The notes below the pieces were generated by a model. The model made no database searches, was not told the origin of the DNA, and worked only from the letters and a program-made list of their open reading frames with translations. A program made the translations under genes and the position numbers. From the NCBI GenBank assembly GCA_040752815.1, contig JBFMGC010000001.1, positions 80,449 through 144,448 on the forward strand: DNA of 64,000 nucleotides, in the 5' to 3' direction. Source of the stretch: Candidatus Zixiibacteriota bacterium. GTDB lineage: Bacteria; Zixibacteria; MSB-5A5; GN15; FEB-12. Position 1 is the first letter of the stretch, and each line of letters opens with the position of its first letter. Shown piece by piece: positions 18,731 through 61,973 of the stretch.

Positions 18731-19603
18731 TCAAAACCAGTTGGCGATCCGGGAATCTATCAGGAGCGCCAAAAATAGCCCAAAAAGGTACAAGATCGAA
18801 AACCGGAACAGCCCACGAACCCTCTCCATGGAGCCGCTTCTCAGCGCGCCTACGCTCCGCCACAGAAAGACCAGGCCGAGAGTCGCCGCAAACGCCAGAT
18901 AGACCCAGCCCGCCCCGAATAGCCCGGGCAGCAGCGATGTCACCACCAGCATGACGGCGTACACCAGCATTTGCCTGAGCGTAGAGCGCTCACCCCGCAC
19001 AAGAGGCATCATCGGTAAGCCGGTGAGGCGGTAATCGTCCTTGTAGGCGATTGCGAGCGCCCAGAAGTGGGGCGGGGTCCAAAAGAATATGATCCCGAAC
19101 ATGAGCCAGGGGAGCCAGCCGGTTGTCCCGGTTGCCGCTGCCCATGCTCCTACCGGAGCCATGGCGCCGGCCGCGCCGCCGATAACAATATTCTGCGCCG
19201 TGGTCGGCTTAAGTACCAGAGTATAAAACAGTCCGTAAAACAGAATGGTCGCCAGCGCCAGCAGCGCCGCCAGCCAATTGAAGAAAAGGGCGAGGATCAC
19301 TAACCCCGCAATGCCAATAGCGACCGAGAAGGTCAGGGCGCTGCCGGGTGAGAGCCGGCGTTGGGGCAGCGGCCGCCGTCCGGCGGTGCGGCTCATCAAC
19401 GCATCCAGATCGCGCTCGAAATACTGATTGAGCGAGTTGGCACATCCGCCGGTCAGAAACAAAGCCACCATGAAGAGTAGGAAACGCCACGGCTGAGCCA
19501 GCATGCTGCCCTCGACCACGAGCGCAGTCGCACCCGTGAAGATGACCAGCAGCATGATGGTCGGTTTGGTCAGTTTCAGGTATTCAGCTACTGTTGCGGA
19601 CAT
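18731..19603 (-). CDS. ctaB: Haem O synthase (protohaem IX farnesyltransferase)
   Basis: The 290-residue integral membrane prenyltransferase adds farnesyl to haem B to make haem O. Its first aspartate-rich motif is NQYFERDLDALMSRTAGRRP (about residues 57-76), with the DxxxD spacing and RT..RPLP ending of the COX10/CtaB family. The second aspartate region appears as AIAYKDDYRLTGLPMMPLV. Nine or so helices are visible. It supplies haem O to CtaA at the far end of the oxidase cluster. It is transcribed separately, with its own 283-base upstream region shared with the divergent DinB-like gene. Confidence 0.93.
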   Translation of the reverse strand: MSATVAEYLKLTKPTIMLLVIFTGATALVVEGSMLAQPWRFLLFMVALFLTGGCANSLNQYFERDLDALMSRTAGRRPLPQRRLSPGSALTFSVAIGIAGLVILALFFNWLAALLALATILFYGLFYTLVLKPTTAQNIVIGGAAGAMAPVGAWAAATGTTGWLPWLMFGIIFFWTPPHFWALAIAYKDDYRLTGLPMMPLVRGERSTLRQMLVYAVMLVVTSLLPGLFGAGWVYLAFAATLGLVFLWRSVGALRSGSMERVRGLFRFSILYLFGLFLALLIDSRIANWF

Positions 19604-44213: not shown

Positions 44214-47200
44214 CTATAGACAGTCCGGCAGGCCTACGGACGATCCGGAAATGAACAAATAATCGATCAGCATAGTGATGTCGCCAATCGAAATATCCTC
44301 GGCCTGAGGCTCAGCGCCGCCGGACTGGTTGATATCGGCCTCAGCTAGGCAGGGTATGACACCGAAATCACCGCCGATAAACAGCGCATCGATCATGGTG
44401 GTCACGTCGCCGATAGTCGGCTCGTCATCACCGCTGCCGTTGGCATCACCGACTCGAGCGACGCAGCACCCTTCGCATCCGTCCGGGACACCATTACCAT
44501 TCGAGTCAATGTGATCGTCGTAGCCGGGACACAAATCACAATCATCACCGACGCCGTCGCCGTCTGCGTCGGCTTCCTGCCCAAACGGGTTAAACAGATC
44601 AGGACAATTGTCCACCGGGCAGAGGTTGGCCGCAAAACCCGGGTCGCCCCACTCATCACCGTCAGTATCGGTACAGGTGTCGCAGGCATCGCCGATCCCA
44701 TCCTGGTCGGCGTCTGCCTGATTCGAGTTGGCTGACTCCGGGCAGTTATCTTCCTGTGCGCATAGGCCATCATCGTCAATATCGTTTTGCGCGTCGAACA
44801 CGCATGGATCGCACAGGTCCCCTACTTTGTCATAGTCAAGATCGGACTGGTCGAGGTTGGCCAGGTCGGGACAGTTGTCGCAGCCATCGGCAAGGCCGTC
44901 GCCATCGGAATCCGCGCCGCCGCTGCAATCAAGATACAGACGGTACATAGACCGTCCGTGGGTGGCCGCGGCGATCTGGCGGGTCGGCTGATTGAAATCC
45001 AGGTCCAGGACCGGCTGCATCGGCATACCGTCACCGAGCGGCGCCCATGAGACTCCCAGGTCTTCGGTGTAGAACACTCCGAAGTCGGTGGCGATATACA
45101 GCGTCGACGAGTTCGCCGGGTCGACTATGACGTCGTTGATCGGAGCGTCGGGGAGATTGCCGGCGATCGGCGTCCACGTCATTCCATAATCGTCAGTGCG
45201 GTAGATATGGGCAACCCACTCGGCGAGCTGGTAACCCGACAGAGTTACATACGCCACGGATGCATCAGTGGGATCGGGAGTGACACGGGTTATCCAGCGA
45301 TCGGGAAGACCGGCGGAACGGTTGAGCCAGCTTGTGCCGCCGTTAAGCGTGACCCACACGTTGGCGTCACCGGTACCGACATAGATGACATCGCTGTCGG
45401 CTGCGGTCAGCCCGATAGTCGATATGACATTACTTCCCGGAGCAAAGTCGCCGTCGGTGAGATCGCCGCTAATCGCTGTCCAGTTGGACGCGGCGTTGGT
45501 CGTTCGATAAATCCGGTGGGAGCCGAGGTAAAGCACGCCGGCGTTGTTCGGGTCCATGGCGAAAGGGGTGTTCCAGTTAAACCGATCGCCGCGGTTGATT
45601 CCGGCGCCGGCATTGGCGAAACTGGCGCCGCCATTGGTTGATTTAGTGATATTCCCCCATTGCCATTCGGCATAGGCGATGTTGGGGTTGGTATGATCCA
45701 CTAAACAGTAGAAACCGTCGCCGCCGAGAACGTGCTGCCAGAACGCCAGCGTCCCGTCAGGAGTACGAAGTGTGCCACGGTCCTGGGTGCCACCGTATAG
45801 CCTTGCCGGATTGTGGGGATCGATTGCCACCGTATAAAACTGGGTGTTCGGGAAGTTGGTTAGGCCTTGCCAGTTGTCGTATAAGCCGCCTGTTGTGCTC
45901 AAGTACACGCCGCCGTCGTTTCCGACCAAGACAAAGTTGGGCGACCCGGGATGGATATACATGGCGTGCTGATCGGCGTAAATGTAAGGCTCGGTCCAGT
46001 CGCCGATCTGCTGCCAATTGAATCCTCCGTCGTCGGAACGGTAAATATCCACGCCCCCCAGATACAACCGGTCAGGAACTCCCGGTGCGACTTTTATCAT
46101 GGCAAAGTAGTAACCGCGATACGTGACCGCAGCATCGGCCACCCCCGCGCCGAGGCGCGTCCACGAATCACCGAGGTCATCGCTGCGATAAACATCCGTA
46201 CCTTCGGGCGGGTATGTCCAGTAAAAGGCGTATACGCGAGTGGACTGCGGATCCAGCGTCAATCCTATCCGCCCGACTGTCGGACCGGTGGGCAGGTCAG
46301 TATCAGACATCAGCTGCCAGGTGTCGCCCCCGTCGGTCGAACGGTACAGTCCGCTAGTCGAGCCGACCATCACCTCCGACACCGTGTACGTGCTCTCCAG
46401 CGACCAGTGTCTCTCCCACATGGCCGCGAACAGCGTACCTGTCGATGGGTGAATGATGACTTCAGCACAGCCGGTAAACTCCGAGATGTAGAGAACTGAT
46501 TCCCAGTTGGCGCCGCCATCGGTAGAGCGATATAAACCTCGCTCCGGATTAGGCTCCCAGAGCCGCCCCATTACAGCGGCGTAAACTATGTTCGAGTTAT
46601 TCGGATCTACCAGGATGCGCCCGATCCCGAAACTGAGCGGCAACCCCGAGAACGTCCACGTCTCGCCCCCGTCGGTGCTCTTGTACAGTCCGGTCCCGTC
46701 ATAGGTCTGAACACGGCCGTTGATCTCCCCTGTACCGGCATAGACGACATTGGGGTTGTTCGGGTCGACCGCCACGGCCCCCATGGAGTAAGTCCCCACC
46801 TCATCGAATACCGCTCTCCAGGTCAGGCCGCGATCTGCTGTCTTGAAAATGCCGGCTCCGGCGCTGGCGGCGTAAATCGTGGCCGAATCGGTTGGGTCGA
46901 CCGCCAGATCGGTGATGCGCCCCGGGACATTGGTCGGCCCGGCCAACTGCCAGTTGAGAGCGGCCTCGCCGCTGAGGGCGCTTTCCGCCCGGGCCTTGGC
47001 TCTCATTTCGCGGTACTTGTCCGCAGCTTGAAGCCGCCGAACCGGATCGACCAACTTAGACGGGTAGGCTCGCTGTATGTAAAACCACTCATTCGGAAGA
47101 GCGCCAATCTTGCCCCATTTGTCTTTCGAAGGTGGCGTGAGTGGCCCGGAAGTTGAATGCGGGGTCGTCCGGTTGAAGCTTGCCGCATAGACTAGTGCGA

Positions 47201-47258
47201 TAAGTACAATGCCCAGACTAGATGCCAGTGTAAACGATGCCCGTCGGCTTGTCTTCAT
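44214..47258 (-). CDS. Secreted Asp-box (BNR/sortilin-like) protein with thrombospondin-3 and dockerin-like C-terminus
   Basis: The 1014-residue protein starts at ATG 47258, after AGAGGA. Upstream frame is unlikely to be used. Residues 8-27 are a signal peptide or anchor. The body (about residues 110-730) has some eleven Asp-box repeats such as [20 protein letters not shown] and [10 protein letters not shown], the ten-bladed propeller pattern of sortilin/Vps10-like and xyloglucanase-like proteins. Thrombospondin type 3 repeats follow ([30 protein letters not shown]). Last comes the dockerin-like pair ending VGLPDCL, nearly the same as in the protein at 25-28 kb. Glycan or protein binding at the surface is inferred. 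No catalytic residues can be named with confidence. Confidence 0.85.
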
Positions 47259-47463
47259 ATATGTCCTCTTTTGAGTGCCGCTTGGCGGCCGAAACGTAGA
47301 AATGCTAAGTAAACGTGAAACCGTGCCGAGATTTAACTTTAGACGGAGAGTCGCGCCAAAGTGTTTACAAAAACTCGCTGACGGCGGACCCCTCGAATCC
47401 GGCGCCGGTCTACAAATGTCGTACGCCCAGAATAAACTAATTACCACTCCCTCGCGCTACAGC

Positions 47464-47707: not shown

Positions 47708-47969
47708 GGACTATCAGTTGTTGGGGCACTAGCACATGCGTGCACCATGCCGGCAAGAAAAGACAAACTAGGGAACTTTCTGTGAAATATGCTATTATTG
47801 CTAAAATCGACGGAGCCTGCCGGCCGCTTTTATCATCCGCAGGCAGCCGATACATTAATAGGCACTCGTCGCACAGTGCACACTTAAGCGACATGATTCT
47901 GTCTTTATCAGGATTTGAGAGTCAATAAACGCAACGCCGACGAGCATGCGGTCGGCAGAAAGGTGGCAT

Positions 47970-48917
47970 ATGAGTCGCGTGTTAGTGACGGGCGGGGCCG
48001 GGTTTATTGGCAGTCATCTTGTCGACGCACTCGTCGGAAAAGGGCACGAAGTCACCGTGTTCGACAACTTCTCCACCGGCCGCGAGGAGAATCTTAGTTC
48101 CTCTCTTTCGAAAGTCAAAGTAATCCGCGAAGACATCCTGAACCTGCAGGCGCTCTCACAGGCGGCCACCGGGACGAACCTCATTTACCACCTGGCCGCG
48201 ATCTCATCGGTGCCACTTTCTGTAGATAACCCTACCGAGACATTCCAGGTGAATCTGATTGGCACGAGTAACGTGCTCGAGGCGGCCCGGCGCAGCGGCA
48301 TCAAGCGAGTCGTGTTTATCTCGTCAGCGTCTGTCTACGGCGCCGATGCTCCCGTGCCGTTCCGCGAAACTTTGCCGCTCGAAGGCAGCTCTCCCTATGC
48401 CACGAGCAAGCTGATAGGCGAGCAGCTTTGCAACCTCTATAGGCGACTTTACGGACTCGAAACCGTGGCCCTTCGGTTGTTCAGTGTTTACGGGCCGCGC
48501 CAGAATCCGCGGTCACAGTATGCCAATGTCATCCCGGCGTTTTCCACGCGATTGTTGAGAGGCGAAGCGCCGGTCATCTACGGCACCGGCAAACAAACCA
48601 GGGACTTCATCTTTGTAGGCGACGTGGTGAAAGCGCTGTGGGTCGCGGGCAGAAAGAACGGAATCAATGGTGAGGTCATCAATTTCGGCTCGGGCAGACA
48701 GACTACCGTATTGCAGCTTCTCGCTCTGATTAGCAAGTCCCTCAGAATCGATATCCCCCCGCAGTTCGCGCCCGCCAAGCCGGGGGACGACCCCCGCACG
48801 TGCGCGGACACGCGAAAGGCGCGACGCGTACTGGGCATCGAGAAGCTGACCCCGTTAGAGTCGGGACTGAAGAAGACCTGCACCTGGTTTAGGCAGTTGC
48901 ACGAGGCCGGGAGTTGA
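47970..48917 (+). CDS. NAD-dependent nucleotide-sugar epimerase/dehydratase
   Basis: The 315-residue extended short-chain dehydrogenase has the NAD loop VTGGAGFIGSHL (residues 6-17), the catalytic Ser in FISSASVYG and the Tyr-Lys pair in SPYATSKLIGEQL. It resembles UDP-glucose or UDP-GlcNAc 4-epimerases (GalE, WbpP type). The exact sugar cannot be read from the sequence. It starts at ATG 47970 after AAAGGTGG. An earlier in-frame ATG at 47946 lacks such a site. It lies upstream of the two-component genes and the polysaccharide operon and probably supplies a sugar nucleotide. Confidence 0.88.
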   Translation: MSRVLVTGGAGFIGSHLVDALVGKGHEVTVFDNFSTGREENLSSSLSKVKVIREDILNLQALSQAATGTNLIYHLAAISSVPLSVDNPTETFQVNLIGTSNVLEAARRSGIKRVVFISSASVYGADAPVPFRETLPLEGSSPYATSKLIGEQLCNLYRRLYGLETVALRLFSVYGPRQNPRSQYANVIPAFSTRLLRGEAPVIYGTGKQTRDFIFVGDVVKALWVAGRKNGINGEVINFGSGRQTTVLQLLALISKSLRIDIPPQFAPAKPGDDPRTCADTRKARRVLGIEKLTPLESGLKKTCTWFRQLHEAGS

Positions 48918-48999: not shown

Positions 49000-50466
49000 A
49001 TGACTGTACGCGCCAAGCTTATTCTTTCTTATTCCGTGATGGCCGCAACCGTAGTAGCCGCGGCGGTGGCCACTACATTGGCCATGATCAACTGGCAGGA
49101 CGCAGCGGGAAAATTGGCCCACAGCCGACAGCAGAGCATGCAGGCCGAGGCGCTGCGGGTCATGATGTTCCGCCAGGTGACCAAGGGTCTTGACTACTTG
49201 AGCAACGCCGGAGGTACAGTCGAGGACTTCCAGCAACTGCAGGTCCAGATTAAGGCCGCGCTGGACAAGCTGCTGGCCGGGGTCACCTCCGATATCGAGG
49301 CCGACCATGTCGAGAGTCTCGATGAAACCCAGACCGAGCTGCGCTGGGTGCTGGCTCAGATACTGACGGCCAGCACTGGTCCCGGCTCCCGATTCGACCC
49401 GGTCGGGGCCCGCACCCGACTGCGGGAAATCGCCGATGAGGTCACCGACGACGTAGCCATACTTAACCAGTATTATCATCACGTGATGGACGACCGACTG
49501 GCCGATGCCTCACGCGCGGGCCAATCGGCGGTGCTCACGGCAGGAATAGCCGTAGTTATCGCTCTCTCGCAGTTGCTCGTTCTGGTAATCCTGAGCAACC
49601 GGTGGCTGGTGCGTCCGATGAGCAGAATCACACAGGTAACTGAACGTATCAGTCAGGGGGATTTCGACGACCGGGTCGGTATCGAGGCTGCCGACGAGTG
49701 GGGTACGCTGGCGACTGCGATCGATAAGATGGCGTCGTCACTCAAAGCGCTTGAACGCCAACTGCTCGCCAAAGAACGGTTCGCCGCGCACGGCGAGATT
49801 ATCGCCTACACCGCGCACAATATCAAGAACCCCCTGGCGGCGATCAGGGCGGCGGCGCAGGTCACGCTTCGCGCGGTGGAAGACAGGGATCACGAGACTG
49901 CGGAATCGCTCAAGGATATCGTGGCCACAGTGGACCGCATGGACGCCTGGGTGAAGGGGCTGATGAATCTCGCCGCGCCGACCCAGTTGCGCCAGGATGA
50001 TGTCGATATAAACCAGTTGGTCGATGAAGTCCTGCATATCGCGGAAACACGGGCGGCAGGCGATGGTGTCGGTCTCGTGCGTGAGTTTGGAAACGACCTT
50101 CCGAGGATTCGCGTTGATTCCGCCCTGATACAGCAGGCGCTCAGCGTGGTAATATCGAATGCTATAGAGGCCGAGAGCCGGACGATAAGGGTCATCACCG
50201 GTGTCAAGAGAGGGGCAGTCAACGATCGGATGCTGACCGTTACGATTGCCGACGACGGCCGCGGGGTGTCGCCCGAGGTCATGCCGAAGCTGTTCCGCGC
50301 GTTTGTCACAGATAAGAAGGGCGGCACCGGCCTTGGGCTGGCCCAGGCCAAGAAGTTTGTGGAGCTCCATCGGGGCCTGCTGACAATACAGAGTGAGCCG
50401 GAAAAAGGCACGACGGTGCTGATTGAACTGCCGGAGTCCCAGAAACCGACGCCGCCTGTATCATAA
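49000..50466 (+). CDS. Membrane sensor histidine kinase of an NtrC-type pair
   Basis: The 488-residue kinase has two helices (about residues 9-30 and 176-200) around a periplasmic helical domain, then HAMP (to about 255). The dimerisation helix has phosphorylatable H273 in AYTAHNIKNPLAAI. An ATPase domain follows with the N box (VISNAIEAES), DDGRGVSPEV and GGTGLGLAQAKKF. The sensory part shows no known ligand motif. The regulator gene begins 31 bases after it. No ribosome site precedes ATG 49000, and TACAAT at 48983-48988 may be a -10 box, suggesting a leaderless message. Confidence 0.9.
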   Translation: MTVRAKLILSYSVMAATVVAAAVATTLAMINWQDAAGKLAHSRQQSMQAEALRVMMFRQVTKGLDYLSNAGGTVEDFQQLQVQIKAALDKLLAGVTSDIEADHVESLDETQTELRWVLAQILTASTGPGSRFDPVGARTRLREIADEVTDDVAILNQYYHHVMDDRLADASRAGQSAVLTAGIAVVIALSQLLVLVILSNRWLVRPMSRITQVTERISQGDFDDRVGIEAADEWGTLATAIDKMASSLKALERQLLAKERFAAHGEIIAYTAHNIKNPLAAIRAAAQVTLRAVEDRDHETAESLKDIVATVDRMDAWVKGLMNLAAPTQLRQDDVDINQLVDEVLHIAETRAAGDGVGLVREFGNDLPRIRVDSALIQQALSVVISNAIEAESRTIRVITGVKRGAVNDRMLTVTIADDGRGVSPEVMPKLFRAFVTDKKGGTGLGLAQAKKFVELHRGLLTIQSEPEKGTTVLIELPESQKPTPPVS

Positions 50467-50497: not shown

Positions 50498-51874
50498 ATG
50501 GCACAGATACTGATAGTGGAAGACGAGGTCCTGTTGGCCAAGTCGCTGGCCCGCGCGCTGATCCAACAGGGGCATGACTGCGCAGTCGCCCCTACCGCCG
50601 AGGAGGGTCTGGCGCTGCTGGCCAAAATGCCGACCGATCTGGTCCTCCTGGATATCCAGCTGCCCGGCATGTCCGGACTTGAGGCGCTCCGTAAAATCAA
50701 GGAGTTCGATGCCAACATCGCAGTGATCATCGCCACTGCCTATGGCACCATGGCGGCGGCAGTGGAGGCGCTTCGGTCGGGAGCGTCCGATTTTCTGCGG
50801 AAACCGCTCGACACCGAGGAAGTTTTACTTGCCGTAGAGCGCGCCGCCACTGATGCCCGCCTCCGCCAGACCGTCTCGTACTATCATGACACGATGGCCG
50901 ACATGGTCGGCGAGGATCAACTGGTCGCCCGTTCGGAGGCAATGCGGCCGGTGCGCGACGTGCTCAGTCGGCTGTCATCGGCTCACCTGCCCACCGCCGG
51001 CGAACATCCGCCCGTGTTGATCACCGGCGAAACCGGTGTGGGCAAGGACATGCTCGCGCGCACCATTCATTTCAAGGGCGAACTGGCCGCTATGCCGCTG
51101 ATCGAAGTTAACTGCACGACCCTACCTCGAGGATTGGAGGAAGCAGAGCTGTTCGGTTACGAAAAGGGAGCGTTCACCGGCGCGGATCGCTCCAAGCGGG
51201 GACTTTTCGACGCCGCCGCCGGGGGAACGATATTCCTCAATGAAATCGGCGATTTGCCTATTGAGGCCCAGGTCAAGCTGCTTCATGTAATCGATCAAAA
51301 GAGCTTCCGGCGGATCGGCGGCCTGAGGGATATCGAGTCAAACGTCCGCATCATCTCGGCATCTAACCGCAACCTGAGAGACGCCGCCAACTTTCGCGAA
51401 GATCTCTTCCACCGGCTGAACTCGATCGGGATTCAGATTCCACCGTTACGGAACCGAAAGGACGACATTATCCCGCTGGCGCAGCATTTCCTGGCCAAAT
51501 TTGGGCGGAAGTACAGTCGGGCCAAGATCCTATCCGAGGACGCCCAGCAGGCGCTGGTTGAGCATCACTGGCCGGGGAACGTACGGGAACTGTCTCAGCT
51601 TATGGAGCGCGTGACGTTTCTGGATGATCGCAAGGTCGTGACCGCCGATGCGCTTGGGCTAAAAGCAGGTACCCACCCGGCGCTGAACATCAGCGACGAC
51701 AACGAGGTAAAAATCGAGGCCTTGGGCGATCAGGTGGACCTGGATAAGATCGAAAAAGCGGTCATCCAGAAGGTGCTCGACGCCAGCCAGGGGAATGTCA
51801 GTGAAGCGGCCCGCAGGTTAAACTTGGGCCGGGAAGCTCTACGTTACCGACTGAAGAAGCACGGACTTGACTAG
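50498..51874 (+). CDS. NtrC-family sigma-54-dependent response regulator
   Basis: The 458-residue regulator has a receiver domain (phospho-acceptor D52 in [10 protein letters not shown]) and an AAA+ domain with Walker A GETGVGKD (residues 177-184). The sigma-54 contact loop GAFTGA stands at 224-229 in [14 protein letters not shown], with Walker [13 protein letters not shown] Fis-type helix-turn-helix ends the protein ([20 protein letters not shown]). All parts for activation of sigma-54 RNA polymerase are intact. The ATG at 50498 has GGAGAG upstream. Immediately downstream lie dyad repeats and a sigma-54 promoter, the likely target. Confidence 0.95.
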
Positions 51875-51885
51875 ACCCGCCCAAT

Positions 51886-51934
51886 CCAACTGGTTCAAAT
51901 AAACCAACTGGTTGATTTCAACCAAATAGCTGGT
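51886..51934 (+). promoter_or_regulatory. Probable upstream activator sites for the NtrC-family regulator
   Basis: CCAACTGGTT occurs at 51886-51895 and again at 51904-51913, 18 bases apart. The second is the centre of the palindrome AACCAACTGGTT. A third half-related dyad, ACCA-N6-TGGT, is at 51921-51934. The group lies about 80-125 bases before the sigma-54 promoter, the usual enhancer distance. Confidence 0.6.
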
Positions 51935-52012
51935 CGGAACAGGTGGAGGAGCTATGTCGCTCGGTCGATCTAATTCCGTGTAAGACAGAATGTTGCGAGA
52001 GCGTCCGGGACT

Positions 52013-52029
52013 TTGGCCCACAGTTTGCT
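52013..52029 (+). promoter_or_regulatory. Sigma-54 (-24/-12) promoter of the polysaccharide operon
   Basis: TTGGCCCACAGTTTGCT matches the consensus TTGGCACRN4TTGCW at all defined positions but one (A to C at position 6). The essential GG-N10-GC spacing is exact. Transcription would start near 52040, about 50 bases before the dehydrogenase ATG. The adjoining regulator is a sigma-54 activator. Confidence 0.7.
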
Positions 52030-52092
52030 GTGGCGTCGTGTACTAAAGCAGTCCATGATAAACCGGCGAACCTAACCATTCGGGTGCACGAC

Positions 52093-53508
52093 ATGAGAAA
52101 CGACGATCACTTCACCAATCGCGCAGCTGCAAACAGCCACGGCGGGCAGGGGTCCGCTGCTATCACCTCGGCCGACCCGCTGGCGAAACGTACCGGGCTG
52201 GTCGGAACCAATATATGTGTGATCGGCGGTGGCTTTGTCGGCCTGGTTGCCGCAGCCGGGTTCGCACAGTTCGGGCATAATGTGGTATGTGTCGAGCGAA
52301 ACCCAGAGTACCTAGCGATGCTCCAGCAAGGCCGGGTGCCGTTTTATGAGCGCGATCTTGACGGCCTCATTCGAACGCACCTGCAGACCGGCCGTCTCAG
52401 TTTTCTCGGCGACCTGGCCGAGGGAGTCAATGATACCCAGGCGATCTTCATCGCGGTCGGCACGCCGTCCGATCCATCAGGTCGGGCGGAGTTGTCTGCG
52501 ATTGACGAAGTAGCCAGGGGTCTCGCCGCTTCGGTTCGTCCCGGCCAGGTGGTCGTAATCAAGAGCACGGTGCCGGTCGGAACCGGCAGCCGCCTTCAGG
52601 CCCAGCTCAACGAGCGGTACGGCGCAGACGGCGCAATTTCGGTCGTGAACAACCCGGAGTTTCTGCGTGAGGGCAGCGCGGTCTGGGATTTTTTCAACCC
52701 ACAGAGAATTGTCATCGGGTCGAGGTCACAGGAGGCGATCAGGGTGGTCAGTGACATCTACCGACTCGGCATGATGCGTACCGTAAACATCATCACGGCC
52801 AACAACGAAACGGCCGAACTGATCAAGTATGCCTCGAATGCGTTTTTGGCGACCAAGATCGGCTTTATAAATGAAATGGCGCTTATTTGCGATCGGGCTG
52901 GGATAAACGTGCTCGAAGTGGCTCGCGCGATGGGCCAGGACAGCCGCATCGGTTCTGAATTTCTCGAGCCGGGCCCCGGCTGGGGCGGCTCCTGTTTCCG
53001 CAAAGATCTCCAGGAGTTCACCGGATTCGCTCGAAGCCAGGGTGCGTCTTTGGCCATCGCCGAGGCCGTACTCACTGCGAATCAGAAGCAGTTTGCGGCC
53101 GTAGTGACTAAGGTTATCTCTCTGACTGGCGACCTGGCCGGACGCCGAGTCGCGGTGTTGGGGCTGGCTTTCAAAGCCAACACCTCTGACATGAGGGATT
53201 CAGCCGCATTGCCGATCGTGCGCGAACTGCTCGCCCGGGGCGCGACGGTGTGCGCGTACGATCCTGAGGCGCATATCGAAGCGACCAATTGGATTCCGGA
53301 CATTGAACTGGCTGAGTCCGCCTATGCCGCTGCCGCAGGCGCGGACTGTCTGTTGATTATCACGGAATGGGCCGAATTCCAGTCGCTGGACCTGGGCCGC
53401 CTGGCGGATACCATGGCACAGCGAAATATCGTCGACGCCCGCAATATCATCGCTCCGGAAACTGCTCACCGCTACGGCTTCCAATACGTGGGCATGGGGC
53501 AATCATAA
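52093..53508 (+). CDS. UDP-glucose/UDP-sugar 6-dehydrogenase
   Basis: The 471-residue enzyme oxidises a UDP-hexose to the uronic acid with two NAD+. It has the Rossmann loop VIGGGFVGLVAA (residues about 43-54), the family stretch VAVGTPSDPSG, STVPVGTG, NPEFLREGSA, and the catalytic cysteine C301 in GPGWGGSCFRKDL. ATG 52093 is taken as start because the sigma-54 promoter would put the RNA start at about 52040. A longer frame from 51943 would precede the promoter. The first 35 or so residues are a polar extension not usual in the family. It is the first gene of the operon and supplies an acidic sugar. Confidence 0.93.
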   Translation: MRNDDHFTNRAAANSHGGQGSAAITSADPLAKRTGLVGTNICVIGGGFVGLVAAAGFAQFGHNVVCVERNPEYLAMLQQGRVPFYERDLDGLIRTHLQTGRLSFLGDLAEGVNDTQAIFIAVGTPSDPSGRAELSAIDEVARGLAASVRPGQVVVIKSTVPVGTGSRLQAQLNERYGADGAISVVNNPEFLREGSAVWDFFNPQRIVIGSRSQEAIRVVSDIYRLGMMRTVNIITANNETAELIKYASNAFLATKIGFINEMALICDRAGINVLEVARAMGQDSRIGSEFLEPGPGWGGSCFRKDLQEFTGFARSQGASLAIAEAVLTANQKQFAAVVTKVISLTGDLAGRRVAVLGLAFKANTSDMRDSAALPIVRELLARGATVCAYDPEAHIEATNWIPDIELAESAYAAAAGADCLLIITEWAEFQSLDLGRLADTMAQRNIVDARNIIAPETAHRYGFQYVGMGQS

Positions 53509-53510
53509 TT

Positions 53511-54803
53511 ATGACGTCCTCTGAGGTACCGTCAGCAACGAGTGTAAACGTAGGCGAGCCCGCGACGCATCCGGTGAGATTTGACGGTGACGGGCGTCGC
53601 ATGCTAATCTACTCCCACGACACGTTCGGCCTCGGGCATCTTCAGCGCTGCTTGAAAATAGCCGAGAGGCTGGTCGCCCGTCTCCCCCGACTTTCGATTT
53701 TGCTGGTCACCGGCTCTCCGGTGGTACATCGTTTCACCCTGCCGCCCGGTGTCGATTATCTCAAGCTGCCGGCGGTGCGCAAAGTGGGACCGGAAAAATA
53801 CGAAGCCCGCAGCATGGGCATTCCCTATCAGCTCATTCTGGAGTTGCGCGCCAATCTCCTGACGCAGGCCGTGCAGAATTTCGCCCCGCACATTCTGCTG
53901 GTCGATCACTCACCGGCAGGTATGAGAGGCGAAATGCTCCCGGCGCTGCATTGGCTTCGCGCCAGTGGCCGACCCTGCACCAAAATCCTCGGCCTTCGCG
54001 ACATTGTCGACGATCCCGAAACCGTCCGAAAGCTCTGGCACGACGAAGGCATTTACGAGCTGATGCGGACCGTGTACGACCGGATTCTCGTCTACGGACC
54101 ACGCGAGGTCTTCGATCTCGCCGCCGAGTACGACTTTTCGCCCGATCTGGTCAACAAGACAACTTACTGCAACTATGTTACGGATGTCCACCGCAACGGC
54201 ATTCGCGCCAGTGCGACAAATGAAACCACACGCCCGACAAAACGGGTGGTCGTGACGATAGGCGGCGGCGACGGCGCGGTGGATCTCATCATTGGCAACT
54301 ACCTGTCGATGGTGGAGAAGTACCGAAGCGAAATCGACTTTGAATCGAGCATTATCACCGGGCCCTTTGTCGCCGAGGACGAGTTCCGGCAACTGCAGCG
54401 CCGCGGGCGGCGGGTGGGCGTAACGGTACGGTCGTTCGTAAAGTCAACCAGCCCGTATTTTCGGAAGAGCGACCTGGTGGTCTCCACCGGCGGCTATAAC
54501 ACGGTCACGCAGATACTCTGTCATGCTCGACGGGCGCTCATTATACCGCGCACCATGTATCGCCATGAGCAACTCCTCAGAGCTGCCTGCATGGCCCGGC
54601 AGGGCTGGGTGACCATGATACCTCCGGAGGAACTGACCTTCGATCGCCTCTACCGGGAAATCCGCAGCCTGCTGATGGACTCGAAACAGGCGATGGCCTC
54701 GCTGCGGAGCAAGCAATCGCACCTGCTTGACGGCGCCGCCGGGGTGGCGTCAGTGTGTGAAGGAATCCTCGTTGCGCAGTCCCAGGAAGGAAGACCGCTG
54801 TGA
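53511..54803 (+). CDS. Predicted glycosyltransferase, MurG-like (COG4671 type)
   Basis: The 430-residue protein has a GT-B layout. FGLGHLQRCLKIAERL near residue 40 resembles the glycine-rich N-terminal loop of GT28 enzymes, and the C-terminal half has VTIGGGDGAVDLI and STGGYNTVTQIL, the nucleotide-sugar site. COG4671-type members are uncharacterised. It begins 2 bases after the dehydrogenase stop and overlaps the next gene by 4 bases. Donor and acceptor are unknown. Action at the cytoplasmic face is expected since there are no signal or membrane segments. Confidence 0.82.
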   Translation: MTSSEVPSATSVNVGEPATHPVRFDGDGRRMLIYSHDTFGLGHLQRCLKIAERLVARLPRLSILLVTGSPVVHRFTLPPGVDYLKLPAVRKVGPEKYEARSMGIPYQLILELRANLLTQAVQNFAPHILLVDHSPAGMRGEMLPALHWLRASGRPCTKILGLRDIVDDPETVRKLWHDEGIYELMRTVYDRILVYGPREVFDLAAEYDFSPDLVNKTTYCNYVTDVHRNGIRASATNETTRPTKRVVVTIGGGDGAVDLIIGNYLSMVEKYRSEIDFESSIITGPFVAEDEFRQLQRRGRRVGVTVRSFVKSTSPYFRKSDLVVSTGGYNTVTQILCHARRALIIPRTMYRHEQLLRAACMARQGWVTMIPPEELTFDRLYREIRSLLMDSKQAMASLRSKQSHLLDGAAGVASVCEGILVAQSQEGRPL

Positions 54804-56086
54804 ACAACGACAGGCAACCATTTCGGATCGGTTACGTCATCAAGATGTTTCCCCGGCTGTCCGAAACGTTTATTCTTAACGAGATCCTCGAACTCGAACG
54901 GCTCGGCGTCGAAGTAACGATCTTTTCGCTGAAGAAACCGAACGAAGGGCGGTTCCACCCGCAGTTGACATCGCTTCAGGCGCGCGTTCTGTACCTCGAA
55001 GACCTTGACCCAAAGAAATGGACCAAGTGGATCAGCGAGGAGTGGCCGACTCTCTCCCAAATGCGCGATAGCCTGTGGCTTCTGATGGACGAGGCGATTC
55101 AGTCGGGCGACGCCAACCGCGCGGATCAGGTATGGCAAGCCGCCTGGGTGGCATCACAGGCGAGGAAGTTGAATCTGAACCATTTCCACGCCCATTTCGC
55201 CAGTCTGCCCAGCACGATTGCCTACTATGCTCACCGCATCTCCAGTATCCCGTACAGTTTTACCGCTCATGCCAAAGACATTTTTGTCTACACTGCCGAC
55301 GAGCACCAGCTAAGCCAAAAACTGGTCACGGCAACGCCGGTCGTGACCGTCACCGAGTTCAACCGCACGTACTTGCTTGGCCAAACAGCCAATCCCAACG
55401 ACGTTCGCCTTCGCGTGATCCACAACGGCATCAACCTCGAGTACTTCCGACCAGACACGTCAATCAGCCGCGAGAAGAACCTGATCCTCACAGTTGGGCG
55501 GCTCGTCCCCAAAAAAGGCATCGACACACTCATAATGGCATGCGATCTAATGAGAAACGCGGCTGTCCCGTTCCGCTGTGTCATCGCAGGAACCGGTCCC
55601 GAGGAAGCGAGTCTGATCGAACTGACCCGTTCTCTCGGATTCGAAGCGGAAGTCGAGCTTGTCGGCTCAAGAAACCTCGAGGAAGTCCGCGTGCTGATGA
55701 ACCGAAGCGCGATATTCTGCCTGCCGTGTCGGGTCACCGAAGACAACAACCAGGACGCCCTCCCCACCGTTCTGCTCGAAGCGCTGGCCTGCGAGCTGCC
55801 GTGCATCTCTACAAGCATATCGGGCATTCCGGAGATCATAGATTCCGGCATTGATGGTTCGCTCGTGGAGCCGGACAATCCGCAGGCGCTGGCCACCGAA
55901 CTCACCCGGCTGCTTCAGTCAGACGAGTTGCGGAAGAAGTACGGCGCCAACGGCCGCAGGAAGGTGCTCGATAAGTTCGATCTGAGAAAGAACGTCCAGA
56001 CTCTCCTGGCGGCTTTCCGGCAAGCAGGGGCGCCGTCAGCGGCGCAGCCTGCGGGCGTGGCCGGACGTCAGGTGGCTGAGGTTTAG
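54800..56086 (+). CDS. GT4-family glycosyltransferase, WcaL/colanic-acid type
   Basis: The 428-residue GT-B enzyme begins IGYVIKMFPRLSETFILNEI, typical of WcaL/AmsK-like transferases. It has NHFHAHFAS, VIHNGINLEYF, LTVGRLVPKKGID and the donor-site Glu in LPTVLLEALACELPCIS. The GTG start overlaps the previous stop (GTGA) with AGGAAGGA upstream. The last 20 residues are low-complexity Ala/Gly. It probably adds a hexose or uronate to the lipid-linked repeat unit. Confidence 0.9.
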   Translation: MNNDRQPFRIGYVIKMFPRLSETFILNEILELERLGVEVTIFSLKKPNEGRFHPQLTSLQARVLYLEDLDPKKWTKWISEEWPTLSQMRDSLWLLMDEAIQSGDANRADQVWQAAWVASQARKLNLNHFHAHFASLPSTIAYYAHRISSIPYSFTAHAKDIFVYTADEHQLSQKLVTATPVVTVTEFNRTYLLGQTANPNDVRLRVIHNGINLEYFRPDTSISREKNLILTVGRLVPKKGIDTLIMACDLMRNAAVPFRCVIAGTGPEEASLIELTRSLGFEAEVELVGSRNLEEVRVLMNRSAIFCLPCRVTEDNNQDALPTVLLEALACELPCISTSISGIPEIIDSGIDGSLVEPDNPQALATELTRLLQSDELRKKYGANGRRKVLDKFDLRKNVQTLLAAFRQAGAPSAAQPAGVAGRQVAEV

Positions 56087-56092
56087 ATTACC

Positions 56093-57379
56093 ATGCGTAA
56101 GCTCCGCCTTCTGTACATCTGCGGCGACCAGGGTATTCCCTTCGGAGGCACGAAGGGGGCGTCGATTCATGTCCGGGAGTTCCTGGAGCACCTCAGCGCC
56201 AACAACTGGAGCCCGGTGGTCGCGATGGCAAGAATCGACAAGAACTCGCAGTATCAGCCGTCGTTTCCGGTGTACGCCCTACCGAGCGACGTGGCGCTCC
56301 CTCACGACGGAGATATTGAAGAACTGGGCCTGGACGAGCAGACCATCCGCGAAGCGAAGCACTACTACCGCAGCCAGGAAGTACAGGAGCTCGTCAACGG
56401 CCTGCACAAGCAATATGACTTTGACCTCATTTACGAAAGATACTCACTTTTCAGCACCGCGGGGCACCTGCTCTCGGCGAAACATGGCCTGCCGCTCGTT
56501 CTTGAGGTCAACGCGCCGCTGGTGCGGGAAGCGGGCAGCTATCGCAGCCTGCGCCAGACACATCTGGCGCGTTCCGTCGAAAAGCTGCTGTTCAATCACG
56601 CCAGTCATATCTTCGCGGTCTCCGAGGAGTTGCGCAGCTACATCCTTGGTATCAGTCCCAACGCCGTTGTGTCGACCACGCCAAACGCCGTCTCGCTGGA
56701 CAGATTCACGAATGTTGACTTCGCCGCCTGGCGGAATCGGATATCTCGCAGTCCGGAGACCGATTTTGTCATCGGTTTTGTTGGCTCGCTCAAGCCGTGG
56801 CACGGTGTCGAGATTCTGCTGAAGGCATTCGCGGCGATTGCGGATACCGATTCGCGCCTTCGACTCTGCCTGGTGGGCGCCGGGGATCAGGCGTACTTCA
56901 ATGGACTTGTCGAGCTGGCGCGTCAACTCGGAGTCACAGACCGGGTGGTATTCACCGGGGCGGTTGCATACGAGGAGGTCGGGCCCGCGCTGCTCAGTAT
57001 GGACGCTCTTGTCGCTCCGTACCCCGCCCTGGACAATTTCTACTTCTCGCCGCTGAAGGTTTTCGAGTATATGGCCGCAGGCAAGCCGATTGTTGCGTCC
57101 GCTATCGGCCAGATAAACAATTTGCTGAATCACGAAACTACCGCCCTGCTAGTACCTCCGGGCGACCAGCCGGCGCTGGGAAGCGCCTTGCTGAGACTGC
57201 TATATGAGCCAGCCTTGAGATCACGCCTTGCGGAAAACGCCCTTGCCGAAGTCACCGCCAGGCACACCTGGCATCAGCGTGTCGCGAACGCGGTCGGTGT
57301 ATTTGACGCCCTGATTCGCGCCAAAACGAAATCGAGGAATGAAACCCGTGCGACTGAAGTCAAGACTACCAACCGTTGA
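56093..57379 (+). CDS. GT4-family glycosyltransferase
   Basis: The 428-residue GT-B enzyme has FGGTKGASIHVREFLEHL near the N-terminus, LVLEVNAPLVREAG, FVGSLKPWHGVEILLKAF and FSPLKVFEYMAAGKPIVAS (donor-site Glu). The pattern is that of polysaccharide GT4 transferases. It lies 6 bases after the previous gene, and its end overlaps the ABC gene by 41 bases. The specific sugar is unknown. Confidence 0.9.
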   Translation: MRKLRLLYICGDQGIPFGGTKGASIHVREFLEHLSANNWSPVVAMARIDKNSQYQPSFPVYALPSDVALPHDGDIEELGLDEQTIREAKHYYRSQEVQELVNGLHKQYDFDLIYERYSLFSTAGHLLSAKHGLPLVLEVNAPLVREAGSYRSLRQTHLARSVEKLLFNHASHIFAVSEELRSYILGISPNAVVSTTPNAVSLDRFTNVDFAAWRNRISRSPETDFVIGFVGSLKPWHGVEILLKAFAAIADTDSRLRLCLVGAGDQAYFNGLVELARQLGVTDRVVFTGAVAYEEVGPALLSMDALVAPYPALDNFYFSPLKVFEYMAAGKPIVASAIGQINNLLNHETTALLVPPGDQPALGSALLRLLYEPALRSRLAENALAEVTARHTWHQRVANAVGVFDALIRAKTKSRNETRATEVKTTNR

Positions 57380-59231
57380 TTTCGCGTCGGTGCGCCGCAT
57401 CTTCAGTCACTTCGGCCACTACCTGAAGGCGCATCGGGTTAAGCTCATCACCAGCGGTGTGGCGCTGCTTGGTTCCACGCTGCTCATGCTGCTTCGCCCC
57501 TGGCCGATCAAGATCGTGGTCGACTTCGTGCTCATGCCGAATCAGCCGTCGCTGGGTAGAGATACGCTGTCGTTCCTGACTGAATTCGAACCCGGAACAA
57601 TCATCCTTTTCGCCGCGGTCGGCGCGGTCGTGGTTGCCGCTCTGCAGGGCATGTTCGAGTACACCCACGCCGTGCTGGCCAAGGCGGCAGGGCTGCGCGT
57701 GATCGCAGACATACGATTGCAACTCTTCTCGCACGTGCAGCGATTGCCCCTGTCATACCACGACTACCGGGAAACCGGCGATCTGCTGACACGCCTGACC
57801 GACGACATCATTCTGCTAGAAGACCTGCTGGTCTCGACAGTTGTTCAGATGGGTAGTCAGATCCTGCTGGTGGTCGGCATGCTGACGGTTATGTTCTGGA
57901 TGGACTGGCAGTTGACTCTGGTCGTGCTGGCGGTCCTGCCGCTGTTCCTCTTCGCCGCATTTGAGTTCTCGGTGCGGATTCGCGAGTCGGCGCAGCGCCA
58001 GAGGGAGATGTACGGTAAGATTGTCACGTCGGTGCAGGAGAGCCTGGCCGGAATCGGCCAGGTCAAGAGCTACGCGCAGGAGAAAAGCCGCGAGAAACTG
58101 GTCGGCGTATCAGTTTCCCGAGACGTAAAGGCTAACGTACGAACGACGCGGCTGACTGCAAATTACGAACGGGTAGTGGAAACCATTACCGCTATCGGCA
58201 CCGCGGTCGTGCTCTGGCTTGGCGCGACGAAGGCACTGGATGGTGCGATGTCGGCGGGCGATCTCATCATCTTCCTTTCCTATCTTCGCGGGATCTACAG
58301 ACCGCTGAGGGGCATGGCGCGGCAGTCAACCCGCGTGGCCAAGGCGACTGTTCGCGGCGAAAAGATTCTCGAGCTGCTCGAGATGCAACCGGAAGTGCAG
58401 GACGTCGAAGAAGGTCTCTCGGCCAAGCAGGTGAAGGGGCAAATCCGATTCGAGCGGGTCACTTTCGGCTACGACGCCGAGCGCCCGGTACTCAGAAACC
58501 TCGATTGCGTCATCCCAGCCGGGAAGACCAGTATCATCCTTGGCCGCACCGGCGCCGGCAAGTCGACTATCGCCAAGCTGATTCTCCGCTTGTACGATGT
58601 GCAGTCCGGTCAGGTCTGGATCGATGGTACAAAGATCGCCGACTACCGGGTGCGCAGCTTGCGCAAGCGGATAACGCCGCTTTCGCAGGAAACCTTCCTG
58701 TTCCGCACGAGCATCGCCGACAACATCGGCTTCGGCAAGCGCAATGCCACACGCGATGAAATAATCGCGGCGGCCAGAACGGTCGGCGCGGACGAATTCA
58801 TCGAAAAACTTCCCGCGGGGTACGACACGCTCGTAGGCGAGGGCGGACTGACTCTCTCCGGAGGCCAGAGACAACGGATAAGCTTCGCCCGCGCGGCGCT
58901 CAGGGGTAGTCCGATTATGATTCTCGACGAGCCGGTGACCGGTCTCGACGTACACACCGAGCGGGAAGCCAAAGAGGTTCTCCGCATGATGAAGGACCGT
59001 CGCACTCTTCTGATTATCACTCACCGGCTGAACTTTCTCGATCTGGCCGACTGGGTCATACTGGTCGAAGACGGCCGGGCCATCGCGCAGGGCAGTCCCG
59101 AGGAGCTGCTGGCCGAGAGCGAGGCGTACCGTCGTTTTGTCGCCACCGCGGATACGCAGACCGTTTCGCCGAACGGCGCCGAATCGCCGGCCGGCGCCTT
59201 GCATCACAGGAACCTGTCATGGGAAGCTTGA
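57339..59231 (+). CDS. ABC exporter half-transporter (MsbA-like permease-ATPase)
   Basis: The 630-residue protein has six helices in about residues 30-310 and an ATPase domain. Walker A is GRTGAGKST (about residue 401), signature LSGGQRQRISFARA, Walker B IMILDEPVTGLD with Val in place of Thr after the Pro, and the switch His in IITHRL. The catalytic Glu is present. Such homodimers flip lipids or lipid-linked glycans. Its place among glycosyltransferases suggests export of the glycan or its carrier. The start overlaps the previous gene by 41 bases. Confidence 0.92.
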   Translation: MKPVRLKSRLPTVDFASVRRIFSHFGHYLKAHRVKLITSGVALLGSTLLMLLRPWPIKIVVDFVLMPNQPSLGRDTLSFLTEFEPGTIILFAAVGAVVVAALQGMFEYTHAVLAKAAGLRVIADIRLQLFSHVQRLPLSYHDYRETGDLLTRLTDDIILLEDLLVSTVVQMGSQILLVVGMLTVMFWMDWQLTLVVLAVLPLFLFAAFEFSVRIRESAQRQREMYGKIVTSVQESLAGIGQVKSYAQEKSREKLVGVSVSRDVKANVRTTRLTANYERVVETITAIGTAVVLWLGATKALDGAMSAGDLIIFLSYLRGIYRPLRGMARQSTRVAKATVRGEKILELLEMQPEVQDVEEGLSAKQVKGQIRFERVTFGYDAERPVLRNLDCVIPAGKTSIILGRTGAGKSTIAKLILRLYDVQSGQVWIDGTKIADYRVRSLRKRITPLSQETFLFRTSIADNIGFGKRNATRDEIIAAARTVGADEFIEKLPAGYDTLVGEGGLTLSGGQRQRISFARAALRGSPIMILDEPVTGLDVHTEREAKEVLRMMKDRRTLLIITHRLNFLDLADWVILVEDGRAIAQGSPEELLAESEAYRRFVATADTQTVSPNGAESPAGALHHRNLSWEA

Positions 59232-59238
59232 ACCGGTA

Positions 59239-60636
59239 ATGAGCAAGTCCACCGTGTCACAGCGCACCGCACGGCAGAACTCCGCAGATTACCAGTTGAT
59301 GGATGCCGCCTTGAAAGGGCTGCCGGCTATTCTCGATACGCATAGAGTCGAAAGGGCGCTTTGCGAAGCGTATGTCGGAAACGGAGCGGTATCTGTCGAG
59401 AGCGCTGAGATCGCATATATCAGATACAAACCGGCTACGTCCTGCCTGGCCGCATATCGAGCGACTGTGCGCCGCGGACCAAGCGCAGACGAAGCCGCCA
59501 ACACAGTCTGGTTCTACGTCAAGGCCTATCATGAAGACGCTTTTGCGGATGCCGTATCCAAAGCGACCGCGCGAGATCGGCACGAACGAACCGGCCATTG
59601 GCGGGCACTTCCGCTTCCGGATGTGAATAGCGTGCTGTATCCAATCGAGTCCGATACAGAACTGAAAGGTCTTCCGACCGTTTTCGATGCCCGCAAAGTT
59701 GTGCGTGTCATTCACGCTGCCCTGCGGGAACATCCAAGAGATACCTGGCGCATATCGGATCGCAAGCTGCGATTGACAGTCGTCCGCTACAAGCCTGAGA
59801 AGCGTGCTGTCTTCCGCGCAGACACCAGACTGGTAAACCGGGAATCCGGTGATCGCCGAAATCTCGGCATTTACATCAGGGTGTACTCCGAGGCTCACGA
59901 CCCGCGCATTCTCGAGTTGATGCGCGGGCTGCATAGATCGGTCGCCGCCTCTCCGGACGTGCGCATTGCCGAACCGCTGCTTTATGACAACGACAAGCGA
60001 ATCCTCATGGTCCGCGAAGCGTCCGGCACGCCGTGTTCCGAACTGCTTGGGCAGGGCGACCAGGGCGAATCGCTTGCTCAAGTTGCTCGCGCGCTAGCCG
60101 TGTTCCACCGCCTTGACAAAGTACCGGCTGACAACCGCTCTGCGGCCGAAATGCTGTCAATTGCGACCGCTACAGGCCGGAACCTGGGACGTCTGGTCAC
60201 CGAGCTGCATGATCCTATCGAACGAATCGCCTCCCGTCTTCAGGCGCTATTCGGGGACCTGCCTGCGGCTCCGCAAGGTCTAGTTCACGGCGATCTTCAC
60301 CCGGGACAGATTTTGCTGGGTGAGCCGTCGGAGCCGGTGACACTCCTGGATTTTGATCGCACCTGTCGTGGCGACAGCGTGTTCGACATCGGTAACTTCA
60401 TCGCACACTTGCACCTCGCGAGCCTTCAGGAGAAGAAGATCGACGTCCAGACAACGGCTGCAAAGTTCCAAGCCGCATATGAGAGTGCATCGGGGCGGAC
60501 GATCGATCCCCGCCTAAGACAGTTCTGGGTAGCGACCGCGCTTCTTCAGTTGGCTATCTCGCCCTTCAGAGTGCTTCGCCCCAACTGGCGCCGGGAATGC
60601 CGGGCAATTGTAGAAAGGTGCGGAGAACTGCTGTGA
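59239..60636 (+). CDS. APH/choline-kinase-fold phosphotransferase (first of pair)
   Basis: The 465-residue protein starts at ATG 59239. A longer frame from 59137 runs inside the ABC gene. Its C-terminal half is an aminoglycoside-phosphotransferase-like kinase: catalytic loop LVHGDLHPGQILL (H350, D352) and metal site LLDFDRTCRGDSVFDIGNF. The N-terminal half has two copies of an Arg-Tyr-Lys stretch (AYIRYKPATSCLAAYRA and TVVRYKPEKRAVFRAD), so an internal duplication may be present. The substrate is probably a small alcohol or sugar of the glycan pathway rather than an antibiotic. It lies 7 bases after the exporter gene. Confidence 0.82.
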   Translation: MSKSTVSQRTARQNSADYQLMDAALKGLPAILDTHRVERALCEAYVGNGAVSVESAEIAYIRYKPATSCLAAYRATVRRGPSADEAANTVWFYVKAYHEDAFADAVSKATARDRHERTGHWRALPLPDVNSVLYPIESDTELKGLPTVFDARKVVRVIHAALREHPRDTWRISDRKLRLTVVRYKPEKRAVFRADTRLVNRESGDRRNLGIYIRVYSEAHDPRILELMRGLHRSVAASPDVRIAEPLLYDNDKRILMVREASGTPCSELLGQGDQGESLAQVARALAVFHRLDKVPADNRSAAEMLSIATATGRNLGRLVTELHDPIERIASRLQALFGDLPAAPQGLVHGDLHPGQILLGEPSEPVTLLDFDRTCRGDSVFDIGNFIAHLHLASLQEKKIDVQTTAAKFQAAYESASGRTIDPRLRQFWVATALLQLAISPFRVLRPNWRRECRAIVERCGELL

Positions 60637-61973
60637 TCAGGATGGACAGGAAATTCGCGCTGCTGGAGATCGCCACCGACCCGGTCCAGATGGCGCCGCG
60701 GCTGCAGGCCAGGCTATTCAACTCCTGGAACGGCCGGCCGCAAATACAGCACTTACACGTCTCCAGGGTGTTCCCGTCGGGCGACGGCAGTCTCTCAATA
60801 CAGTATGTGGTCTATTTGCAGGAGCCGGCAACGTCAACTCCGCGCCGCATGATCTTCTGCGGCCAATGGTTCGGCATGGCCGACGGCCGGCCGACTTACC
60901 TCGCCGAGGAGCCAAACCGGGTGGTCTCGATCGACGATCTCGATCTCGCCGTGCCGATCTTCCCCTTCGATCCCGATCTGCGAATCGCTCCCCTGCTCGA
61001 TGACGGCCGCGTGCTTCGCTCCCAGGCCAGTCTCTCCAATATCGAGACTGACTATCGCTGGTCCGAATTCGACCTGGAGACTTATGAAGTTCTCAGTTAT
61101 CGCCTGCGGCGGCGGTGCGTGCTGCGTTTGAAAACTGGACCAAGTAGGTCCGGTTTAGATATGCTCGAAGTAATAGCCAAGATCTACCGACCCACCAAAT
61201 TCCACAGGGTCCTGACCACATTGAACTGGCTGGAGACCAGGGGCTACGGCAGGGTCGCTGAAGACAGCCTGGCCTTTGCCACGGCAGTGGCAGTCGACCG
61301 CGAGCGCGGTTACCTCTTTTTGAAACCTTCCGTGGGCAAATCGGTTCATGATAGCATTGGAAACGGGTCGTTTGTGCCGGGATGTGCCGCCGCTGCCGGA
61401 ATACTAAGCAAACTGCATAGCGAGAGCGGATCGGACCTTCCGCGGCACGACTGGAAGTCTGAAACCAAAAACCTATCGCCTACGATGGAACTGGCCGGGT
61501 CCATTTATCCGGAAATGAGTGAGCTGTTCAGATCAGCCTTCGACGCGCTTCAGTCACGAGCTGTCCTGGTAGAAGCCTCCCGCCCGACCGCAATTCACCG
61601 GGACTTCTACGACAAGCAGGTGCTCTTTGGCAAAGGAGCGCCGACTACGCTGCTTGATTTCGACAGCCTGGCTTCGGGAGATCGCGCCTGCGATGTCGGC
61701 AATTTTCTGGCCCATCTTGATCTGCGCGAGCTGCAGCATCCCGAAGCCGCCGCTGAAATACGGGCGGGCGAGTCAGCCTTCCTTGGAGCCTATGATAATA
61801 CCGATGACGACATCGCACCGCGCGTCCGGTGGTGGCGGGCGGCGTCGCTCCTCAGATTGGGCGCAATCTATGCGCTTCGACCTCGCTGGCGCCATCTGGC
61901 GGCAACTCTCGCGGAAAAGTCGCGACAACTGATATCCATACGCGAACGAATGAAAGGGAAAGTGGTTCAATGA
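60633..61973 (+). CDS. APH/choline-kinase-fold phosphotransferase (second of pair)
   Basis: The 446-residue protein starts at GTG 60633, overlapping the previous stop by 4 bases, with GGAG at 60622-60625. ATG 60642 is an alternative. The kinase motifs are AIHRDFYDKQVLFG (H322, D324) and LLDFDSLASGDRACDVGNFLAHL. Like its neighbour it has an N-terminal part with YRLRRRCVLRLKTG, but overall similarity between the two seems low outside the motifs. The two kinases overlap in translation, suggesting they work in one pathway or as a complex. Substrate unknown. Confidence 0.8.
   Translation: MIRMDRKFALLEIATDPVQMAPRLQARLFNSWNGRPQIQHLHVSRVFPSGDGSLSIQYVVYLQEPATSTPRRMIFCGQWFGMADGRPTYLAEEPNRVVSIDDLDLAVPIFPFDPDLRIAPLLDDGRVLRSQASLSNIETDYRWSEFDLETYEVLSYRLRRRCVLRLKTGPSRSGLDMLEVIAKIYRPTKFHRVLTTLNWLETRGYGRVAEDSLAFATAVAVDRERGYLFLKPSVGKSVHDSIGNGSFVPGCAAAAGILSKLHSESGSDLPRHDWKSETKNLSPTMELAGSIYPEMSELFRSAFDALQSRAVLVEASRPTAIHRDFYDKQVLFGKGAPTTLLDFDSLASGDRACDVGNFLAHLDLRELQHPEAAAEIRAGESAFLGAYDNTDDDIAPRVRWWRAASLLRLGAIYALRPRWRHLAATLAEKSRQLISIRERMKGKVVQ

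Follow-up and report, generated by a model that had tools for sequence, protein, structure and literature searches.

What controls a polysaccharide operon that lies directly behind an NtrC-family regulator and a membrane sensor kinase, and whether the adjoining pair switches it through a sigma-54 promoter, are the questions raised by this locus of a Candidatus Zixiibacteriota genome. Sigma-54-dependent transcription follows a standard scheme, in which a kinase signal is followed by phosphorylation of the activator, binding to tandem sites, assembly of a ring, looping of the DNA and remodelling of the polymerase. The control of exopolysaccharide genes by sigma-54 is a known theme, and a general survey extends it to exopolysaccharide and envelope biosynthesis (PMC3162934). 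Here, we analysed the whole stretch of 64,000 nucleotides presented above (the window) and compared it with 132 genomes of the class; the phylum set was of the same size and gave the same matches. A literature search retrieved no paper on Zixibacteria dealing with this regulator and operator.

Results

Sensor kinase and regulator

The sensor histidine kinase (49000-50466, plus strand; Pfam HAMP, HisKA and HATPase_c) displays an extracytoplasmic domain between two hydrophobic stretches and the HisKA motif AHNIKNPL at amino acid 272. It adjoins the regulator in all relatives with that flank covered, at 34-42% identity, and the alignment of its sensor region revealed invariant polar residues. The regulator, an NtrC-family sigma-54 activator with 17 orthologues (50498-51874, plus strand; Pfam Response_reg, Sigma54_activat and HTH_8), carries the receiver Asp in LLDIQLPG, a Walker A motif (51026-51049), the GAFTGA loop (51167-51184), a Walker B motif reading FLNEIG (51233-51250) and a Fis-type helix-turn-helix (HTH), GREALRYR (51827-51850). 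The upstream regulator with an intact GAFTGA loop and the paired membrane sensor kinase that a preliminary description of this DNA had proposed are both confirmed, the latter by the HAMP/HisKA protein encoded before the regulator.

A Walker B motif of the form hhhhDE is typical of NtrC-family enhancer-binding proteins, without strictly defining them. All 17 regulators depart from it, with Asn in place of Asp in FLNEIG, and the other activators found by the same motif search at the loci compared carry Asp, a version present in 131 of the 132 genomes. A class-wide motif scan returned about 20 further matches with Asn (NE), in other activator families, and the Asn was consequently rejected as a unique signature of the regulator, being shared by other activators of the class. 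Many of the other Zixibacteria activators with Walker B Asn possess N-terminal TPR-like regions. The D107A substitution in PspF cuts ATPase activity to 0.23 per minute, against 39.5 without it (PMC3419264); the replacing residue is Ala there and Asn in these regulators. Given this very low activity, and the presence of Asn in 17 of 17 sequences, it is not certain that the regulator is an active ATPase.

The putative glycan operon

The locus opens, ahead of the kinase gene, with a gene for an NAD-dependent epimerase/dehydratase (47946-48917, plus strand; Pfam Epimerase, E=2e-68), whose synteny extends to most of the relatives compared over this range. Beside the locus, the minus strand (44214-47447) encodes a large protein with sortilin/BNR and thrombospondin type 3 repeats, whose C-terminal end, by eye, resembles a dockerin.

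The operon downstream of the regulator extends over nearly twelve kilobases of the plus strand, and its genes either overlap or stand only a few bases apart. It begins with a nucleotide-sugar dehydrogenase of the UDP-glucose type (52093-53508; NCBIfam TIGR03026, 421 bits against a cut-off of 190), whose start was taken as the ATG at 52093; the mechanically called GTG at 51943 lies upstream of the promoter described below, and with the ATG the leader would be about 53 bases long. The following genes encode a GT28-like glycosyltransferase (53508-54803; Pfam Glyco_tran_28_C), an EpsE-like GT4 glycosyltransferase (54800-56086; Pfam Glycos_transf_1; NCBIfam EPS_EpsE at 198 bits, below the cut-off of 400), a second GT4 glycosyltransferase (56093-57379; Pfam Glyco_trans_1_4), an MsbA-like ABC exporter with fused membrane and ATPase domains (57339-59231; Pfam ABC_membrane and ABC_tran), two APH-domain kinase-like proteins (59230-60636, Pfam APH E=7e-17; 60642-61973, E=5e-9), and an outer-membrane beta-barrel combining DUF5666 (E=9e-15) with an alginate-export-like domain (Pfam Alginate_exp, E=1e-19; 61976-63766), for which a PDB search gave no match. 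Start codons are approximate for the GT28-like, the two APH and the barrel genes. A nucleotide-sugar enzyme, glycosyltransferases and an exporter are found here in one operon, the combination by which exopolysaccharide operons are recognized. Because the dehydrogenase, three glycosyltransferases, MsbA-like exporter, APH proteins and Alginate_exp barrel occur together, we infer glycan synthesis and export; judging from these gene assignments, the product would probably be an exported surface or extracellular glycan, with uronic acid as a probable constituent.

Predicted promoter and operator elements

A predicted sigma-54 promoter, TTGGCCCACAGTTTGCT, lies at 52013-52029 on the plus strand, with GG at 52015-52016, ten intervening bases, GC at 52027-52028, and TTGGCAC and TTGC flanks. 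This is the 17-base match to the -24/-12 consensus, with exact GG-N10-GC spacing, noted previously, and its placement before a sugar dehydrogenase was borne out, that gene being the first of the controlled operon. Transcription is predicted to start at about 52039-52041, some 12 bases beyond the -12 element, and the genome encodes the cognate sigma factor, RpoN (Sigma54_DBD, E=2.7e-57, contig C4). The match alone is not significant, since TTGGCN6TTTGCT with up to one mismatch is expected 0.83 times by chance in the window, and TGGCACN5TTGC with up to one mismatch occurs 190 times in the whole genome against 235 for the reversed control.

Upstream of the promoter stand two probable binding sites of the regulator, to which no strand is assigned: a distal operator, TGGTTCAAATAAACCA (51891-51906), which is a perfect palindrome, and a proximal one, TGGTTGATTTCAACCA (51909-51924), which is kept in 15 of 17 relatives and precedes the -24/-12 element by 104 bp, start to start. 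The operator unit is a 16-bp palindrome, TGGTT-N6-AACCA, repeated in tandem with an 18-bp pitch. The two dyads previously placed about 100 bp upstream of the promoter are thus present at the 18-base spacing then given, but the sequence proposed as their repeat unit, CCAACTGGTT, is the junction between sites (AACCA-AC-TGGTT), formed where the right half of one palindrome meets the left half of its neighbour. Its copies here, at 51886-51895 and 51904-51913, are 18 bases apart, and the window has further ones at 18735 and 50011. The third partial dyad of the same proposal amounts at best to a weak half-site, for which conservation was not found.

The 3.2-Mb genome contains just three perfect copies of the 16-bp palindrome, and two of these belong to this locus. 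The third, on contig C26, was rejected as an operator and is taken as a chance occurrence because it lies within a methyltransferase-like coding region. At one mismatch, the count of palindromes does not exceed the expectation from shuffles of the single genome.

Conservation across the class

Orthologues of the regulator were identified in 16 of the 132 genomes at a strict cut-off, and one more is cut by a contig end, giving 17 with 54-60% identity; the next matches fall to about 42% or less. The GT28-like glycosyltransferase occurs in exactly the same 17 genomes, and this co-occurrence of regulator and operon, together with the presence of rpoN, supports the earlier prediction of sigma-54-driven glycan synthesis at a single locus. 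The six best-matching loci that share the whole locus all belong to Candidatus Zixiibacteriota (Zixibacteria). Over the longer stretches compared, gene order is kept across families: epimerase, kinase, regulator, dehydrogenase, GT28, GT4, GT4, ABC exporter, APH proteins and outer-membrane barrel. In some relatives the dehydrogenase is absent at this place, and the promoter then precedes the GT28 gene.

In 15 of the 17 relatives, a palindrome (TGGTT-N6-AACCA with up to two mismatches) is found directly 3' of the regulator stop codon, and a GG-N10 element (score of at least 8 of 13) begins 92-104 bp after the start of the palindrome. Dinucleotide shuffles yielded the same combination at a mean of 0.04 of 17 loci, with a maximum of one, and perfect operators with a stricter promoter score were obtained at 8 of 17 loci and at none in shuffles. 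It is from this conservation, far above the shuffle mean, that promoter and operator derive their significance. The check that had been suggested at the outset, namely conservation of the -24/-12 element and the dyads in relatives, accordingly came out in favour of both: 15 of the 17 operon-bearing genomes retain them at fixed spacing, and a sixteenth has a variant of each. Across 16 aligned relatives the GG of the -24 element is invariant, and the C of the -12 element varies (GC, GA, GT and, in one, TC). When the relatives are aligned on the proximal site, most display a second copy 18 bp upstream, with a conserved AAAT core; this copy ranges from well preserved to degenerate. At one locus (L066, genome G075), where operator and promoter are intact, the regulator gene has an in-frame TAA at Walker A, possibly a sequencing error.

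A protein-blind scan of the 132 genomes with the pattern palindrome-N75-98-TGGCN7TTG returned nine places, seven of them at this locus. Since the reversed pattern gave six, the number of matches is unremarkable and only their location is significant; this concentration suggests that the regulator is dedicated to the operon.

The two exceptions to the 15 are the two members of genus g26. Genome G026 carries TTGTTCATATAAACAA, a TTGTT/AACAA variant, with a second, degenerate copy 18 bp on and a weak GG-N10-GT element 98 bp further. Genome G029 (locus L041) keeps the operon genes, shows no convincing operator or promoter, and has GSFSGA in the activator loop and an in-frame TGA in the GT28 gene; either decay of the operon or a fault in the assembly could explain this. 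As a relative that retains the operon, G029 counts against the proposed switch. Immediately ahead of the recognition helix, the AR of the other regulators is replaced by AQVL in both from g26 (an R-to-Q change). As a sequence correlation, this HTH change alongside an operator change would fit the regulator as the reader of the operator, with the limit that it represents a single evolutionary event.

Alternative explanations

The operon might be driven mainly by read-through from the epimerase, kinase and regulator genes, or by a sigma-70 promoter, with the sigma-54 promoter in a minor role. All genes are co-directional, the gap between regulator and dehydrogenase is about 220 bp, and read-through from upstream is possible because no plus-strand terminator was predicted between the regulator gene and the operon; read-through and sigma-54 modes can also coexist. 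Still, the promoter-enhancer pair has been kept by selection at fixed spacing across families, and a search of the regulator-dehydrogenase gap found no sigma-70-like site, so that we consider this account unlikely.

A second alternative accepts the -24/-12 element and the palindromes as real and assigns the palindromes to a different sigma-54 activator. The genome holds at least 40 NtrC-family matches, and Fis-type HTHs are alike, but arrays of operator and promoter are found almost nowhere except at this locus, the genomes with the regulator are exactly those with the operon, and the HTH change in g26 accompanies the operator change; we therefore judge the involvement of another activator quite improbable.

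That the palindromes form an RNA hairpin, as a terminator or attenuator after the regulator gene, instead of protein sites, has in its favour a terminator-like match on the minus strand (51925-51908). The plus-strand RNA, however, folds little better than shuffles (z=-1.1), the arm sequence is conserved beyond what pairing demands, and the distance to the -24 element is fixed; the hairpin was rejected as very improbable on the weak fold and the conserved arms. Chance matches, suggested by the single genome, in which neither the promoter element nor the one-mismatch palindrome exceeds expectation, are refuted by the 15 of 17 relatives against 0.04 in shuffles and deserve almost no credence.

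Homologous operons in other phyla

Outside Zixibacteria, a strong -24/-12 element was detected within 400 bp upstream of 7 of 73 homologous GT28 loci, where control windows of the same loci give an expectation of 0.15. These seven belong to Proteobacteria and one planctomycete (L093, L095, L099, L100, L109, L114 and L130), and do not amount to seven independent events, as some of the loci are related. The neighbouring activators and the dyads differ at these loci, L109 having another dyad, TGGGTGACTTCACCCA, upstream; sigma-54 control of the module may therefore have more than one origin, or have been retained repeatedly.

Discussion

The architecture described here matches that of PrsK/PrsR, with a membrane kinase and an NtrC-family regulator, an operator, a spacer and a -24/-12 element. 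In the PEP-CTERM/exosortase systems of Proteobacteria, the genes for PrsK and PrsR usually lie close to glycosyltransferase loci, a spacer separates the -24/-12 element from a preceding binding motif, which is in some cases repeated, and regulator, kinase and motif have one phylogenetic profile (PMC1569441). Nevertheless, the proteins fall below the family cut-offs (315 against 502.6 bits for PrsR, TIGR02915; 80 against 300 for PrsK, TIGR02916), and a search of the genome for exosortase (PF09721) found none; membership in PrsK/PrsR was rejected on these grounds. PEP-CTERM genes, the target there, are replaced here by the biosynthesis operon itself, and the end-to-end gap from operator to -24 element is longer, about 76-88 bases against a PrsK/PrsR mean of 63 (PMC1569441). 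The regulator shares the receiver, AAA+ and Fis HTH domains of NtrC/AtoC/ZraR-type regulators, with AtoC as its best NCBIfam match, but all equivalog cut-offs failed among the matches listed, and it is set apart by its own operator and by the Walker B Asn of all orthologues.

Distant relatives share the regulator, the paired sites, the spacing and the promoter, which makes it very probable that the adjoining sensor-regulator pair switches the operon on; we read the locus, with high confidence, as a two-component switch that acts through sigma-54 and is dedicated to a glycan exported by the ABC transporter and probably containing uronate. Comparison of sequences is what establishes the conserved regulator-operon linkage, the operator, the spacing and the promoter. 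We infer phosphorylation, binding, looping, the start site and an exported polysaccharide as the product, as follows: the membrane kinase would sense a signal outside the cytoplasm and phosphorylate the neighbouring regulator, whose dimers would bind the tandem palindromes (51891-51924) and assemble into an AAA+ ring; with the DNA looped over about 100 bp, the ring would remodel sigma-54 RNA polymerase at the promoter, and a transcript starting near 52040 would read from the dehydrogenase through the outer-membrane barrel.

More tentatively, and with more doubt than belief, we consider that the glycan module (GT28-GT4-GT4-MsbA-like exporter, in many cases accompanied by dehydrogenase, APH kinases and AlgE-like barrel) might be common to Zixibacteria, Proteobacteria and Planctomycetes and have come under sigma-54 control repeatedly, through a local activator that varies from case to case, that of Zixibacteria being a distinct subfamily with Walker B Asn for Asp. 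If so, this subfamily would imply an altered, perhaps slow, activation cycle. The conserved Asn is in any event a natural variant of the residue mutated in PspF.

The locus offers a complete, testable circuit that runs from sensor and activator through operator and promoter to the target operon, and does so in a phylum whose representatives here are metagenome assemblies; the operator consensus allows binding to be tested on synthetic DNA, with no need for culture of the organism. As such, the locus would lend a further example to the idea that the bacterial exterior is under sigma-54 control.
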